From Geobacter sp. SVR (lineage in GTDB: Bacteria > Desulfobacterota > Desulfuromonadia > Geobacterales > Pseudopelobacteraceae), in NCBI RefSeq assembly GCF_016865365.1, contig NZ_AP024469.1:2138501-2202500 (forward strand): DNA of 64,000 bases, given 5' to 3'. Each line of letters starts with the position of its first letter. Position 1 is the stretch's first letter. The translations under genes were made by a program, and so were the position numbers. Of the stretch, positions 21,569-27,354 are shown in pieces. The notes under the pieces were generated by a model that ran no database searches, was not told the origin of the DNA, and worked only from the letters and a program-made list of their open reading frames with translations.

Positions 21569-22702
21569 GTGGCAAAAAAAGTAGCGTTTCTTCAGGGTAA
21601 CGAGGCCGCAGCACACGGCGCCATCTACGCCGGCTGCAACTTTTTCGGCGGCTACCCAATCACACCCTCGACAGAGGTTGCTGAGGTCATGTCTGTCGAG
21701 CTTCCTAAAATCGGCGGAAAATTCATTCAGATGGAAGACGAGATCGGTGCCATGGCTGCCATTTTGGGCGCCTCACTGGCCGGCTCCAAGGTTCTTACAT
21801 CGACATCCGGCCCCGGTTTGTCTCTCAAGCAGGAACTGATCGGCTACGGCTGCATTGCCGAAATCCCCTGCGTCGTCTACAACGTCATGCGCGGCGGTCC
21901 CTCCACCGGTATGCCGACCGGTCCCAGCCAGTCGGACGTTATGGCTGCAAAATGGGGCACCCACGGTGACCACCCGGCCATCTGCCTGGTGCCTGCTTCG
22001 GTTCAGGAGACCTACGAAGAAGTCATTCGTGCCTTCAATCTCTCTGAAAAATACCGTACCCCGGTTATGGTCATGCCGGATGAGATCGTTGCCCACATGC
22101 GTGAGCGCATCGTTTTCCCAGAAACTGGCGAGATCGAAGTCGTTCCGCGTAAAACTCCGACCGTCGCACCGGACCAGTACAAACCCTATGACACCAGCTT
22201 CGGCGATGTACCGCCGCTGGCCGCCTTCGGCAGCGGTTACAAATTCCATGTGACCGGTCTCAACAAGATGCAGGATGGTTTCCCGACAACCAAGGCCGAA
22301 ATCGTTCAGGCCGAGGAAGAGCGCCAAGTGCGCAAGGTTGAAGCCAATGTTGACGATATCGTCACCTTCGAAGAATACCAGTTGGACGACGCCCAAGTGG
22401 TGGTCATTGCTTACGGCTCGACCTCCCGTTCGGCTCGTTATGCTGTCAATGCTGCCCGCGAGCAGGGCATCAAGGCCGGCATGTTCCGCATCAAGACCTT
22501 CTGGCCGTTCCCGGATAAGCAGATCAAGGCTTTGGCCGGCAAGGTCAAAGGTTTTGTCGTACCTGAGATGAACCTGGGTATGTGTGCCAATGAAGTGGAG
22601 CGCTGCGCTCAAGGCAAAGCCCCGATCCTCGGAATCTTCCGTGTTGACGGCGAGCCGATTAATCCCGACCAGATACTCGAGAAGATGAAGGAGGTTAAGT
22701 AA
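21569..22702 (+). CDS. korA: 2-oxoglutarate:ferredoxin oxidoreductase, alpha subunit
   Basis: 377 residues. It belongs to the pyruvate/2-oxoacid:ferredoxin oxidoreductase family: GGYPITPSTEVAEVMS near the N-terminus, then the transketolase C-like region (RTPVMVMPDEIVAHMRERI and VVVIAYGSTSRSARYAV). With KorB, KorC and KorD it makes succinyl-CoA from 2-oxoglutarate and CoA with reduction of ferredoxin, giving the anaerobic TCA cycle its low-potential electrons. GTG start at 21569 with GGGAGGA eight bases upstream. Stop and korB ATG are separated by two bases. Confidence 0.95.
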   Translation: MAKKVAFLQGNEAAAHGAIYAGCNFFGGYPITPSTEVAEVMSVELPKIGGKFIQMEDEIGAMAAILGASLAGSKVLTSTSGPGLSLKQELIGYGCIAEIPCVVYNVMRGGPSTGMPTGPSQSDVMAAKWGTHGDHPAICLVPASVQETYEEVIRAFNLSEKYRTPVMVMPDEIVAHMRERIVFPETGEIEVVPRKTPTVAPDQYKPYDTSFGDVPPLAAFGSGYKFHVTGLNKMQDGFPTTKAEIVQAEEERQVRKVEANVDDIVTFEEYQLDDAQVVVIAYGSTSRSARYAVNAAREQGIKAGMFRIKTFWPFPDKQIKALAGKVKGFVVPEMNLGMCANEVERCAQGKAPILGIFRVDGEPINPDQILEKMKEVK

Positions 22703-22704
22703 CC

Positions 22705-23523
22705 ATGGCTTTTGAATATGAAAAGTACATTCGTCCGGGCAAGCTGCCCCATATCTGGTGCCCGGGCTGCGGTCACGGCATCGTTATGAAGGGCTTGATC
22801 CGCGCAATGGATACTCTTGGTCTCAAGAAGGAAAATACGGCCATTGTGTCCGGTATCGGCTGCGCTTCCCGACTCCCCGGCTACATTGACTGCTGCACCC
22901 TGCACACCGCCCACGGCCGTGCCGCTGCTTTTGCAACCGGCGTGAAGCTGGCCAAGCCGGAAATGAACGTGATCCTGTGCGGCGGCGACGGCGACGGTAC
23001 CGCCATCGGCGGCAACCACTTCATCCATGCCTGCCGCCGTAACATCGACATGACCTACATCATCATGAACAACTACATCTACGGCATGACCGGCGGCCAG
23101 TTCTCCCCGGCCACCCCGACCGGCCACAAGGCCTCCACCACGCCGTACGGTAACCCTGATCCGAACTTCGACATCGCCAAACTGGCCATCGGAGCCGGCG
23201 CCACCTTCGTGGCCCGCGGCACCGCTTTCCATGCCAACCAGATCGACAAGCTGATCGTGGAAGCCATCCAGCACAAAGGTTTCTCCGTGGTCGAGATCCT
23301 GGACGACTGCCCCACAACCTACGGCCGTCGCAACAAGTACAAGTCGGTTATCGAGATGATGAACCGCCTGAAGGAAGTTGCCGTACCGATCAAGGCTGCC
23401 GAGAAGATGACCGCCGAGCAGCTGCAGGGCAAGGTCCTGACCGGTGTTCTCTACAAAGAGGAAAAACCCGAATATACCGCCGAGTATGCCAAGGTTATCG
23501 AGCGCGCCCAGGCCGCCAAGTAA
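22705..23523 (+). CDS. korB: 2-oxoglutarate:ferredoxin oxidoreductase, beta (thiamine-binding) subunit
   Basis: 272 residues. It holds the thiamine diphosphate site: HIWCPGCGHGIVMKG, the GDGDGTAIGGNHFIHACRRNIDMTYI stretch with a GDG-x-NN-like metal/cofactor motif (NNYIYGMTGGQFSPATP), and VEILDDCPTTYG. This layout is the standard KorB pattern and distinguishes it from pyruvate enzymes, although substrate choice (2-oxoglutarate versus other 2-oxoacids) rests mainly on the TCA context. It runs to 23523, 26 bases before korC. Confidence 0.95.
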   Translation: MAFEYEKYIRPGKLPHIWCPGCGHGIVMKGLIRAMDTLGLKKENTAIVSGIGCASRLPGYIDCCTLHTAHGRAAAFATGVKLAKPEMNVILCGGDGDGTAIGGNHFIHACRRNIDMTYIIMNNYIYGMTGGQFSPATPTGHKASTTPYGNPDPNFDIAKLAIGAGATFVARGTAFHANQIDKLIVEAIQHKGFSVVEILDDCPTTYGRRNKYKSVIEMMNRLKEVAVPIKAAEKMTAEQLQGKVLTGVLYKEEKPEYTAEYAKVIERAQAAK

Positions 23524-23549
23524 TTCACTAAGGAAAAGGAGAGATATAG

Positions 23550-24095
23550 ATGTCCAGATATGAACTCAGATTTTCCGGCGCAGGGGGGCAGGGGCTCATC
23601 ACCGCCGGCATCATCATGGCTAAGGCCGCCTCCATCTACGAGGGAAAACAGGCCGTCCAGTCGCAGAGCTACGGTCCCGAGGCCCGTGGCGGCGCTTCCA
23701 AGTCGGAAGTCATCATCTCCGACGGCGCCATCGACTACCCCAAGGTAACCCAGTGCGATGCGCTTCTGGCCATGACCCAGGAAGCAGCCAACAAGTACTC
23801 CCATGACCTGAAAGAGGGTGGGGTGCTGCTGATCGATTCCGATCTGGTCAAAAACGTACCGCCGGGGAATTTCAAGACCGTTGCATTCCCGATTATCAAC
23901 ACGGCCAAAAACGATGTGGGACGTGAAATCGTTGCCAATATCGTTGCCCTGGGCGCCATGGTTGCCCTGACCGGCCAGGTGACCCGCGAAAATGCCGAGA
24001 AAGCCGTGCTTTCCAGCGTTCCCGAAGCATTCCTGGAGCTGAACAAGAAGGCCTTCAGCATGGGATACGATAAGGCAATCGCAGCCAGCGCCTGA
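23550..24095 (+). CDS. korC: 2-oxoglutarate:ferredoxin oxidoreductase, gamma subunit
   Basis: 181 residues, POR gamma family: FSGAGGQGLITAGIIMAKAA, QSYGPEARGGASKSEVIIS and a central GVLLIDSDLV stretch. It completes the four-subunit enzyme. AAAGGAGAGA lies before the ATG. The gene is followed by a strong terminator, which closes the korDABC unit. Confidence 0.95.
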   Translation: MSRYELRFSGAGGQGLITAGIIMAKAASIYEGKQAVQSQSYGPEARGGASKSEVIISDGAIDYPKVTQCDALLAMTQEAANKYSHDLKEGGVLLIDSDLVKNVPPGNFKTVAFPIINTAKNDVGREIVANIVALGAMVALTGQVTRENAEKAVLSSVPEAFLELNKKAFSMGYDKAIAASA

Positions 24096-24290: not shown

Positions 24291-25310
24291 ATGAATTCCC
24301 GCACCATTGCTCCCCAAAAAAACGACGACGATTTTCAGTACGATGCAACCCTGCGTCCCCGGGCACTCGGCGAATATATCGGCCAGGAAAAGATCAAGCA
24401 GAACCTGGGTCTTTTCATCGATGCAGCCAAGGGGAGGGGGGAGGCGCTTGATCATGTGCTGCTGTATGGCCCTCCCGGCCTGGGCAAGACCACCCTGGCC
24501 AACATCGTGGCCTGCGAAATGGGGGTGAACATCAAGTCCACCTCCGGTCCCGTGATCGAGCGCCCGGGAGACCTGGCTGCCATTCTCACCAATCTGGAAG
24601 CACATGACGTTCTGTTCATCGACGAAATCCACCGGCTGTCCCACGTTGTCGAAGAGGTGCTTTACCCGGCCATGGAGGACTTTCAGCTGGACATCGTGAT
24701 CGGCCAGGGGCCCAGCGCCCGTTCGATCAAGCTGGACCTGCCCCGTTTCACCCTGGTCGGTGCCACCACCCGTGCCGGGCTGCTCTCCTCGCCACTGCGT
24801 GATCGCTTCGGCGTCATCTCCCGGTTGGAATTCTATACCGACAGCGAACTGGCGACCATCATCACCCGCTCTTCACACATCCTGGGGATGGAGATCGAAT
24901 CGCAGGGTGCGCACGAACTGGCCAGGCGCAGCCGCGGGACGCCGCGCATCGCCAACCGGCTGCTGCGTCGGGTGCGTGATTTCGCCCAGGTCAGGGCAAA
25001 CGGCATCATCACCCGGGACGTGGTTCAGGAAACGCTGAGGCTGCTGGACATCGACGAAAAGGGCTTTGATTACATGGATCGCATCATTCTGCTGACGATC
25101 ATCGACAAGTTCAACGGCGGACCGGTGGGGCTGGACACGATTGCCGCCGCCATCAGCGAGGAAAGCGATACGATCGAAGACGTTTACGAGCCCTATCTGA
25201 TACAGAACGGGTTTCTCAACCGTACACCGCGCGGGCGGGTTGCCACCGTCGCAGCCTATCAGCACCTGGGCCGCACCGCGCCGGAATCCTCGCAGGCGCG
25301 GTTATTTTGA
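24291..25310 (+). CDS. ruvB: Holliday junction branch-migration ATPase RuvB
   Basis: 339 residues, the standard length. Walker [10 protein letters not shown], Walker [11 protein letters not shown], sensor and Arg finger region [16 protein letters not shown], and a C-terminal winged helix ([32 protein letters not shown]). ruvA and ruvC are not in the window, so this gene may be their distal neighbour or separate. It is followed two bases later by an AAA+ gene. Confidence 0.97.
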
Positions 25311-25312
25311 CG

Positions 25313-26029
25313 ATGCAGCAGATTTTCGAATTCCCGGTAGCTTCGCTGCTGACCTTCGACAGTTTCATCGGTTGCGACGGCAATTCCGCAGCGGTGCAGT
25401 TCGCCAGGCGAATCGCCGATCCCGCCGACGCGGAGAACCTGCTGTATCTCTACGGTCCTTCCGGCTCCGGAAAAACCCATCTGCTCAAGGCGATCGCCCA
25501 TGCGCTGGGTTCAGCCTGCCATTGTGCGATCCCCTGTCTCTCCTGTCGCGATATCCTTTCCGCCGACCAGTTGTTCGAGGTTCTGAACGATGCTCCCGCC
25601 CTGCTGGTCGACGACCTGCATCTGCTGCGGGACGATCCCTCCCTGAGGGGGGGGCTGTGGCAGGTTTTCAACGATCACTATACCGCCGGCCGGAAGATAG
25701 CTCTGGCCGGGCTGCATAGCCCGCGGGAGTTGCCCCATCTGGACGACCATCTGATCTCGCGTCTGTTATGGGGACTGGTTTCCAGGCTGGACACCTCCGA
25801 TGATGATTCCCGCCGCATGATACTGAAAAAGATCGCCGATGACCGCCAGGTGCGGGTGCCCGACGATGTGGTCGACTATATTCTCATCACCACCAGCCGG
25901 GAGGTAGGTGACCTGATCACTACCTTCGAAACCCTCTATCGCCTTTCCATGGCCCAGAAACGGAAGATTTCTTTGTCGCTCGCCAGGGAATCCCGCGAAT
26001 ATCTGACTGCGGGGGGGAGGCCCCTATGA
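25313..26029 (+). CDS. DnaA/Hda-like AAA+ protein
   Basis: About 238 residues. AAA+ core with Walker A GPSGSGKTH (about residues 46-54), Walker B LLVDDLHLL (about 100), and downstream DDSRRMILKKIADDRQVRVPDDVVDYILITTSREVGDLITTFETLYRLSM, the lid layout of DnaA. The C-terminal DNA-box-binding HTH of DnaA is absent, so it is Hda-like: a possible regulator of replication initiation. ATG 25313 is two bases after the ruvB stop; a TTG at 25307 overlaps it but is less likely. It overlaps the next gene by ATGA. Function in this group is inferred from homology only. Confidence 0.85.
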   Translation: MQQIFEFPVASLLTFDSFIGCDGNSAAVQFARRIADPADAENLLYLYGPSGSGKTHLLKAIAHALGSACHCAIPCLSCRDILSADQLFEVLNDAPALLVDDLHLLRDDPSLRGGLWQVFNDHYTAGRKIALAGLHSPRELPHLDDHLISRLLWGLVSRLDTSDDDSRRMILKKIADDRQVRVPDDVVDYILITTSREVGDLITTFETLYRLSMAQKRKISLSLARESREYLTAGGRPL

Positions 26030-27354
26030 CCCCCTATAAGAATCGTCTCAAGACACCTGAAGAGATCGAACTGGGCAAAAAACGCGATGAGCTTGCCAAG
26101 GCACAACACCGCCTGGCTGAATGGGAGCAGGCCTATACGGAACTCAAATCCGAGATCCGGAGTTTCGAACAGGTCTATGCGCAGGTTCTGGGGGCGCGCA
26201 TCAGCCAGTTGGAAGACCTGGAGTGGCAATTGAACGGGCTGCTGGAGGGGGAGGGGGAAAAAGGCGCATCCGTTTCCTCACTGAATGAAGAAGGCTTTAC
26301 GCAGTTTCAGCACCGTACCGATCTCTTGGACGACGATTTCGCACCCATGCCGGGTGGATCGCAGAAAAGCCTGAAAAGCCTGTACCGCGAGGTCGCCAAA
26401 GCCATCCATCCCGATCTCGCATCCGACGACGAGGAGCGCCTGCGCCGGCAGGAGCTGATGACCGAGGCCAACCGGGCCTATTCGGCCGGTGACCGCACGG
26501 TGCTGGAAGAGATCCTCAGTGAGTGGGAACAGGGTCCTGAAATGGTCTCGGGCCTGGACGTAGCCATGGAGCTGGTGCGGGTCATCCGGCTGATAGCCCG
26601 GGCGGAGCAGAATACCCAAGCCCTGATTCGACAGATCAAAGAACTCAAGGCCAGCGATATCTACAGTTTCAAGATAAGGGTCGATGAGGCTGCGGCTGAC
26701 GGTATTGACCTGATGGCCGAGATGGCCGCCACGGTTGACCTCGATATCGCCAAAACCAGACGGCGCCTGGCGGTATTGAGAGGTGACGGGGAGAAAACGG
26801 AGGGAACTGACGGCCCTCCCCTGGAAACCCGCCTGATACGCTTTCCGTCAGAATATTCCTGCGGTATGCTCTACGAACGCAGCAGCGGTTCGGTCGACTA
26901 CCGGGACTGGCACCGTCTGGGGGGCGCCCGCGGTGTGCGGGAGGTGTTTCTCGACAAGGCGGTACGGCTGGATGTCAAAGGCACGACCGAAAATGAAATG
27001 CGTTTCCTCCAGGCCTTGCAGCCCGACGATCTGCAGGCGCTTTTCCTGTACGATATCAACGACAGCTCTCTGGCATATCTGTCGCACCTGAGCGGCCTGC
27101 AGGAGCTCTATCTCTCCAATACCTCCGTTACCGACGAGGGGTTGTGCCAGCTGCAGGCACTGCATGGCCTGCGCCGCCTCTACATCTATCACAGCGCCAT
27201 CAGCGACTCCGGTCTGCTCAATCTGACGCAGTTGAGCGGCCTCAAATGGCTGACCTGCAGTGGCACAGCCATTACCGAAGAGGGGTTGTCCGTTTTCCGC
27301 GAACTGCTGCCCGCCTGCAAGGCGGTCAGCTTCGAATGGCGGCACGGCAAATAG
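26026..27354 (+). CDS. J-domain plus leucine-rich-repeat protein of unknown function
   Basis: 442 residues. N-terminal coiled coil (about 10-60), then a J-like region (about 113-165) with SLKSLYREVAKAIHPDLASDDEERLRRQELMTEANRAY, where the HPD tripeptide of DnaJ is intact near residue 128. A helical middle follows (about 180-270). The C-terminus (about 330-430) has four leucine-rich repeats of the bacterial type (LQELYLSNTSVTDEGLCQL, LRRLYIYHSAISDSGLLNL). Start overlaps the preceding AAA+ gene by ATGA, so the two are coupled. I know no named family with this pair; a Hsp70 co-chaperone with an LRR client arm is inference. Confidence 0.8.
   Translation: MTPYKNRLKTPEEIELGKKRDELAKAQHRLAEWEQAYTELKSEIRSFEQVYAQVLGARISQLEDLEWQLNGLLEGEGEKGASVSSLNEEGFTQFQHRTDLLDDDFAPMPGGSQKSLKSLYREVAKAIHPDLASDDEERLRRQELMTEANRAYSAGDRTVLEEILSEWEQGPEMVSGLDVAMELVRVIRLIARAEQNTQALIRQIKELKASDIYSFKIRVDEAAADGIDLMAEMAATVDLDIAKTRRRLAVLRGDGEKTEGTDGPPLETRLIRFPSEYSCGMLYERSSGSVDYRDWHRLGGARGVREVFLDKAVRLDVKGTTENEMRFLQALQPDDLQALFLYDINDSSLAYLSHLSGLQELYLSNTSVTDEGLCQLQALHGLRRLYIYHSAISDSGLLNLTQLSGLKWLTCSGTAITEEGLSVFRELLPACKAVSFEWRHGK

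Follow-up and report, generated by a model that had tools for sequence, protein, structure and literature searches.

Behind ruvB in Geobacter sp. SVR: an Hda-like AAA+ gene and a probable fused form of a J-domain-like/repeat co-chaperone

Based on a 64,000-nucleotide stretch of the Geobacter sp. SVR genome (hereafter the window; contig NZ_AP024469.1, positions 2,138,501 to 2,202,500 of the forward strand) and on comparisons with other genomes, two separate things probably share one operon behind ruvB: an Hda-like regulator of the AAA+ type and a co-chaperone in which a J-domain-like segment is fused to leucine-rich repeats (LRRs). The host genome, of the order Geobacterales, has 4.72 Mb on a single contig. 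The basis for this reading is the gene order, homology, the conservation of motifs and of the HPD tripeptide, an unfused pair of J and LRR genes in another bacterium, and the variety of partners found next to the J gene outside the order.

The stop codon of ruvB (TGA, at 25310) is followed by two bases (25311-25312) and then by the ATG of the AAA+ gene at 25313. The AAA+ open reading frame (ORF) ends at 26029 and the ATG of the J-domain-like/LRR gene (hereafter the J/LRR gene, or the J gene for its homologues) is at 26026, giving an ATGA overlap, so that the coordinates confirm the order, gap and overlap noted in an earlier, sequence-only reading of this DNA. Linkage of the J gene to the AAA+ gene was seen in 56 distinct loci; 42 of them have a two-base gap between ruvB and the AAA+ gene, and 36 have a four-base overlap of AAA+ and J (here and in the AAA+ and HPD counts below, distinct means distinct by sequence, or by length and score, and not by species), and because both features recur, the layout is not due to chance. 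RuvB scored 538.1 bits against the NCBIfam equivalog PRK00080.1 (curated cut-off, 282), and its RuvB_N, lid and C domains are all recognized by Pfam.

The neighbourhood was compared in 141 genomes of the order, which were searched with each of the three window proteins; adjacency means location on the same strand with match ends fewer than 1500 bases apart, and matches that are partial at a contig end are included. Wherever a genome has both ruvB and the Hda-like gene (134 genomes), the two are adjacent. The J/LRR protein was matched in 86 of the 141 genomes: 61 of the 76 in the window's family and, in the other three families, 0 of 4, 2 of 13 and 23 of 48. On whether relatives lack the trio, a check proposed in the earlier reading, the answer is divided, since the complete trio exists in 59 of the 76 genomes of the window's family and in 0 of the 65 in the rest of the order. 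Of the 61 window-family genomes with both genes, 59 have the J gene behind the AAA+ gene; it is on a different contig in G081, as is a partial J gene in G100. In all 24 genomes of other families carrying both, the two genes are unlinked and the neighbours of the J gene vary. Eleven window-family members have the AAA+ gene and no J match. Seven stretches behind the AAA+ gene were fetched; six (G067, G078, G079, G095, G104 and G105) contain other genes and no J remnant by tblastn, and the contig of the seventh (G084) ends shortly past the AAA+ gene. By coordinates, G066, G082, G084, G103 and G108 have little remaining contig or a broken match, and are weak evidence on the absence of J. The ruvB-hda arrangement being fixed across the order and its J neighbour confined to one family, ruvB-hda is an old pair and J a family-specific addition.

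A conserved three-gene pathway was therefore rejected, with the trio in one family only and the place of J behind hda empty or otherwise occupied in the six family members with enough sequence to tell. The link among replication control, recombination and Hsp70 recruitment that the sequence-only reading had offered found no support, because the J gene joins ruvB-hda in a single family, is unlinked or missing elsewhere, and lies beside repeat-protein genes outside the order. In its specific form, in which the J/LRR protein directs DnaK towards the Hda-like protein, DnaA or RuvB complexes and the chaperone tunes replication control and recombination, such a pathway would agree with the tight co-translation implied by the four-base overlap, with the linkage kept in nearly all window-family genomes that have both genes, and with the remodelling of replication initiators by DnaK in other systems (PMC8215388). 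We nevertheless consider it very unlikely, given the restriction of the linkage to one family, the 24 genomes with unlinked genes and varying J neighbours, the at least six window-family members without J after hda, and the absence of ruvB or Hda-like matches from the stretches examined around 11 J-only loci of other phyla. Co-translation with ruvB-hda in this family probably reflects a shared expression slot and is not proof of a common pathway.

Some individual genomes of the order may be mentioned here. G051 (5.1 Mb, one contig, listed as 100% complete) has the J/LRR gene but lacks a ruvB match at 1e-50, and its only match to the Hda-like protein is at the DnaA level, possibly through joint loss of ruvB and hda or through an assembly gap. 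G018 has ruvB but no Hda-like match stronger than 9.3e-20, the sole such case among the genomes with a ruvB match. In five window-family members (L229-L233), the place of J is held by a conserved gene of about 280 amino acids, followed by genes that resemble, by eye, those of metal ABC transporters.

Outside the order, the coiled-coil/J part is a gene of its own. A scan of named genomes matched 303 stretches, of which 131 were confirmed and 80 kept; 69 of the kept loci are of the fused type or its fragments, and the remaining 11 (L151-L161) are J-only, the J gene itself matching only the first approximately 257 residues of the window protein. The records of these 11 belong to Methylomirabilota, Cyanobacteriota, Acidobacteriota, Chloroflexota, Pseudomonadota and Desulfuromonadales, and in most of them the next gene overlaps or almost abuts the J gene. 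Three phylum samples gave J matches (E<=1e-20) in 5 of 146, 13 of 149 and 10 of 247 genomes; in the third sample, six of the ten belong to the fused type found in the window's family. Altogether 31 J-only loci were examined; a downstream ORF was found in 25 (L157 and L197, both among these, are one locus counted twice) and none in six (L154 and L183, both cut by contig ends, L185, L188, L192 and L196). A strict motif of the LVxRGL type, [LI][VI]xR[GA] within the first 60 amino acids, is present in 15 of the 25 downstream ORFs and a near variant in five more (L151, L155, L158, L159 and L181), while five (L182, L191, L194, L195 and L204) are probably not partners. The background frequency of the strict motif is 7 in 904 ORFs and 1.3% of shuffles.

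The bodies of the partners belong to different repeat folds. Pfam recognizes tetratricopeptide repeats (TPRs) in the partners of L151, L152, L161 and L181, WD40 repeats in L153, L155 and L180, Sel1 repeats in L187, L199 and L239 as well as in L198, where sigma-70 region 4 is also present, and LRRs in L157; no Pfam domain was found in the partners of L156 and L160 (the latter at 1e-6). By eye, the L160 partner resembles that of L153, and those of L186, L189, L190 and L193 resemble that of L187; their repeat types were assigned from this resemblance. On a Granulicella plasmid, a J gene with the annotation "hypothetical protein" overlaps a second gene; the record calls the latter a tetratricopeptide repeat protein, and Pfam assigns it to Sel1. 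The L198 partner (L198:2286-2756) joins its Sel1 repeat to a sigma-70 region 4 DNA-binding domain, which suggests targeting of Hsp70 to a DNA-binding client or site. A 562-amino-acid gene upstream of J on a Paraburkholderia plasmid was not counted as a partner: it has an LIARG string, but no Pfam domain (1e-6), and is not such a repeat protein.

The fused and unfused forms are connected by L157, from a metagenome-assembled genome of Desulfuromonadales (Desulfobacterota) that the genome sample places outside the window's class, in which J (262 amino acids) and a cap-LRR protein (350 amino acids from the chosen start) are encoded by separate, overlapping genes. The L157 LRR protein matched the C-terminal 187 amino acids of the window protein over cap plus LRR (BLASTP E=1e-23, 35% over 164 amino acids); a plasmid search with it gave six records, all general LRR matches only. 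Given the separate J and repeat genes elsewhere and this J and LRR pair, the window protein would be the fused form of a two-part co-chaperone. At the junction of the 20 fused proteins of alignment A1, the strict motif was found in none, chance-like strings being present elsewhere in three, and such a loss is expected if the job of the motif was to join the two parts. In a tree built from 49 J parts, a single group (98/92) holds the 20 fused proteins, and WD40 and TPR partners each require three label changes, at least two of them forced by starred branches. This fits one fusion event plus repeated exchange of heads, with a strength limited by the midpoint rooting and the inclusion of near-copies; L066 was counted as fused; its J half has a long branch and meets the remaining fused forms only at the deep branch.

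Several observations tell against a general docking partner. The motif was defined only after the partner sequences had been viewed, and several partners are near-copies of one another (L158 and L159 of L155). No adjacent motif partner exists in nine of the 31 J-only loci, and two others are cut by contig ends, so that the partner is not universal; four of the nine form one clade in the acidobacterial sample. Extending the view around L183 and the loci without a partner revealed no motif gene next to J on its strand. As a separate observation by eye, three members of the clade of L185, L188, L191 and L192 (wider stretches L242-L245) have a similar oxidoreductase-like gene on the opposite strand, no more than about 2 kb away.

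It is possible, although we would not yet call it probable, that these loci represent an Hsp70-targeting system with interchangeable heads, in which a constant coiled-coil/J subunit is combined with a peptide-docked repeat partner (WD40, TPR, Sel1 or LRR, once with sigma-70 region 4), client choice evolves by head swaps, and the head was fused permanently in Geobacterales. Such a swappable co-chaperone appears to be of an undescribed kind, and a full-text search of the open-access literature, a scope outside which most subscription journals fall, found no paper on a J/variable-repeat module. The interchangeable heads and the patchy distribution in the three phyla would also suit sensors of a chaperone-linked defence or stress system, with repeats recognizing foreign or damaged proteins; chaperone-linked repeat systems exist (PMC7159879). 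In one locus (L156, 2191-8086), the J gene and an unassigned partner are flanked by AbiEi/AbiEii-like toxin-antitoxin genes on one side and by an Eco57I-type methylase-like gene on the other. The rest of the scanned neighbours, however, encode ordinary enzymes, transport proteins or peptidases, none of the GTPase, MoxR or vWA cores was seen among 10 neighbour ORFs scanned, a J search of 50,697 phage records gave zero matches, and the fixed place behind ruvB-hda in the window's family is unlike that of a typical mobile defence gene, which makes a defence or stress role highly doubtful.

The AlphaFold2 model of the J/LRR protein has a mean pLDDT of 79.7 and a pTM of 0.43, at which the arrangement of the domains is uncertain. 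Modelled helices at residues 116-127, 135-154 and 157-169 flank the HPD tripeptide, and residues 75-113 are disordered (pLDDT <50). Of 111 distinct family frames from several phyla, 110 contain HPD; the other is a 108-amino-acid contig-end fragment that stops short of the J segment. In A1, Y120, R121, V123, A124, K125, H128, P129, D130 and L131 are invariant in all 20 sequences, and counterparts of the basic helix II residues R121 and K125 are kept in alignment A3. A J protein from the same genus (G120) is 65% identical to that of the window. The LRR part matched solved LRR proteins by profile (best E=2e-22) and LRR structures by Foldseek, with a single-sequence Pfam LRR_4 score of 23.9 bits (cut-off, 27).

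Against a working co-chaperone stand the lack of any helix I ahead of the HPD part in the AlphaFold2 model, for which reason the segment is called "J-domain-like", and a Pfam DnaJ score of 17.1 bits (cut-off, 27.8), the higher of two stand-alone J homologues scanned reaching 23.2 bits; the segment is under the NCBIfam cut-offs as well. From these, stimulation of DnaK could be weak or absent. The "intact HPD J-domain" with LRRs described earlier accordingly stands in its HPD, its helices II-III and its LRR fusion, but with no helix I modelled and with DnaJ and LRR_4 scores under threshold, the word "intact" was too strong. The same low scores and missing helix would be expected if the segment were a relic helical scaffold, with HPD kept for structure and the Hsp70 contact lost. 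Drift is expected of a relic, whereas HPD is conserved over several phyla and R121 and K125 are invariant in A1 with counterparts in A3, and we regard this alternative as quite unlikely.

The AAA+ protein is a relative of DnaA domain III with 238 amino acids and without DnaA domains I, II and IV. It is separate from the genome's own DnaA, found as the second match at the chromosome start (C1:434-1138). The earlier identification as DnaA/Hda-like was upheld: Pfam Bac_DnaA (78.8 bits; cut-off, 23) and Hda_lid (38 bits; cut-off, 27) both exceed their cut-offs, and the best NCBIfam model is that of Hda. Its AlphaFold2 model (mean pLDDT, 89.9) matches structures of DnaA domain III and Hda. In E. 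coli Hda, QLSLPL is required for clamp binding and box VII R153 for hydrolysis of DnaA-bound ATP, according to PMC3836487. With the E. coli K-12 Hda of NC_000913 as reference, the window protein has a hexapeptide at the place of QLSLPL and a box VII arginine. An N-terminal Q-x-x-[FL]-x-[FL] is found in 76 of 76 distinct homologue frames (e.g. QQFFDF, QQALDL and QLIFDF), as are Walker A and L-x-S-R-[LF], and S149, R150, W153 and G154 are invariant in alignment A2. Walker A is canonical in the window protein; E. coli Hda has AREGAGRS at the same place.

Some results speak against Hda itself. The score of the best model, TIGR03420, is 150.4 bits and under its cut-off of 194.8 (the DnaA model gave 124.5 bits), hence the label "Hda-like". 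The window protein has G where DnaA and Hda carry R in the aligned sensor II stretch. In a tree that included E. coli Hda, its branch was 6.81, with a long-branch warning, and its placement is unreliable. These score and motif differences from E. coli Hda, together with the constant linkage to ruvB and with G051, which has neither ruvB nor an AAA+ match, would fit another DnaA-derived, clamp-bound ATPase, for instance a helicase-loader-like protein of the DnaC/DnaI type or a clamp-linked repair factor working with RuvB. That seems unlikely, though deserving some weight, as the Hda model beats the DnaA model, Hda_lid is above cut-off, the Hda-type hexapeptide and arginine finger are conserved, and DnaC and DnaI structures are far weaker matches (1.6e-11 and 6.1e-06). 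The Hda-like identity is well supported by this anatomy, although not proven, and a beta-clamp-dependent inactivator of DnaA is the likeliest candidate function. Among 148 genomes of the phylum, Hda-like matches above 300 bits occurred only in the four genomes of this order, among the matches listed; no Hda-like homologue was recognized in the 144 outside it, where the matches listed reached at most 144.4 bits and were mostly DnaA-length frames, and where distant homologues may escape. No paper on clamp-linked DnaA inactivation in Geobacterales was found in the full-text search.

With two separate things in one operon as the preferred reading, we infer two independent actions. QQIFEF would attach the Hda-like protein to the beta clamp; on replicating DNA, its box VII arginine would complete the ATPase site of DnaA-ATP and thereby block new initiations; the activity in this step is carried over from E. 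coli Hda and Caulobacter HdaA, and the anatomy comes from the present analysis. The HPD-bearing J-like segment would recruit DnaK and trigger ATP hydrolysis, the coiled-coil/helical part serving as scaffold and the LRRs selecting the client. In the unfused modules, the partner would dock by its N-terminal peptide, the motif being a probable docking peptide, and its repeat domain would hold the client. The J gene would have arrived behind ruvB-hda in one family. If this is true, the same Hsp70-recruiting subunit, paired with varied recognition folds through a common peptide, provides natural experiments on client choice by J proteins, with a direct comparison of the fused form and the unfused one; through the Hda-like gene, clamp-linked DnaA inactivation in Geobacterales becomes testable.

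The features of the locus are collected in the table. A set resembling 2-oxoacid:ferredoxin oxidoreductase genes lies at 21569-24095, 195 bases upstream of ruvB, a TPP-enzyme domain being recognized by Pfam and the remainder by eye.

Table. Genes, motifs and structural parts at the ruvB locus (positions in the window; residues of the respective protein)
Feature	Position	Strand	Evidence
ruvB, Holliday junction branch-migration helicase, 339 aa	24291..25310	+	NCBIfam PRK00080.1; adjacency to AAA+ gene
Hda-like AAA+ gene, 238 aa	25313..26029	+	Domain, profile and fold matches; separate from DnaA
QQIFEF, residues 2-7, clamp-binding-type hexapeptide	25316..25333	+	Aligns with QLSLPL of E. coli Hda
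Walker A GPSGSGKT, residues 48-55	25454..25477	+	Canonical; Walker A in 76/76 homologue frames
Box VII SRLLWG, residues 149-154, candidate arginine finger R150	25757..25774	+	Alignment with E. coli Hda and DnaA box VII
ATGA overlap, AAA+ stop/J gene start	26026..26029	+	ORF coordinates; 4-base overlap in 36/56 distinct linked loci
J-domain-like/LRR gene, 442 aa, probable fused form of two-gene module	26026..27354	+	Homology, alignment, model, tree
N-terminal long helix, probable coiled coil, residues 11-73	26056..26244	+	AlphaFold2, block pLDDT mostly 84-94
J-domain-like segment (helix II, HPD loop, helix III, helix IV), residues 116-169	26371..26532	+	Model and invariant residues
HPD tripeptide, residues 128-130	26407..26415	+	Between helices 116-127 and 135-154
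Helical middle domain, three helices, residues 179-251	26560..26778	+	Common to stand-alone J proteins of other phyla
Beta-rich cap, residues 268-318	26827..26979	+	Homologous to start of separate LRR protein in L157
Leucine-rich repeats, residues ~335-440	27028..27345	+	Profile, Foldseek, modelled solenoid

Compared with known systems, the AAA+ protein shares with E. coli Hda and Caulobacter HdaA, which act in the regulatory inactivation of DnaA (RIDA), a DnaA-domain-III-like AAA+ body without domains I, II and IV, the N-terminal hexapeptide and the box VII arginine, and differs from them in its canonical Walker A, its score under the TIGR03420 cut-off, its place behind ruvB and a G, not an R, at the sensor II position. 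The J/LRR protein resembles the class C J-domain proteins, such as HscB and DjlA, in having an HPD segment attached to unrelated client-binding parts; this class is heterogeneous and carries added interaction domains (PMC8215388), and the window protein is distinguished by the lack of a modelled helix I, by its N-terminal coiled coil and by an LRR fusion specific to Geobacterales. The chaperone-linked, NTP-dependent conflict systems (eLife 2020, PMC7159879) likewise combine chaperone components with superstructure-forming repeats, and include a J-domain fusion in one theme, but the MoxR/vWA or GTPase cores described there have no counterpart among the neighbour ORFs scanned here. The closest tested precedent is the AtcJ-AtcC-AtcB system of Shewanella oneidensis, in which a dedicated small J protein connects DnaK with a partner from its own operon, AtcJ binding AtcC through a 21-residue peptide (PMC6715715). 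The docking peptide of AtcJ is the C-terminal tail of the J protein, whereas the candidate motif here is at the N-terminus of the partner, whose body is varied (WD40, TPR, Sel1 or LRR) or, as in the window, fused to the J part.

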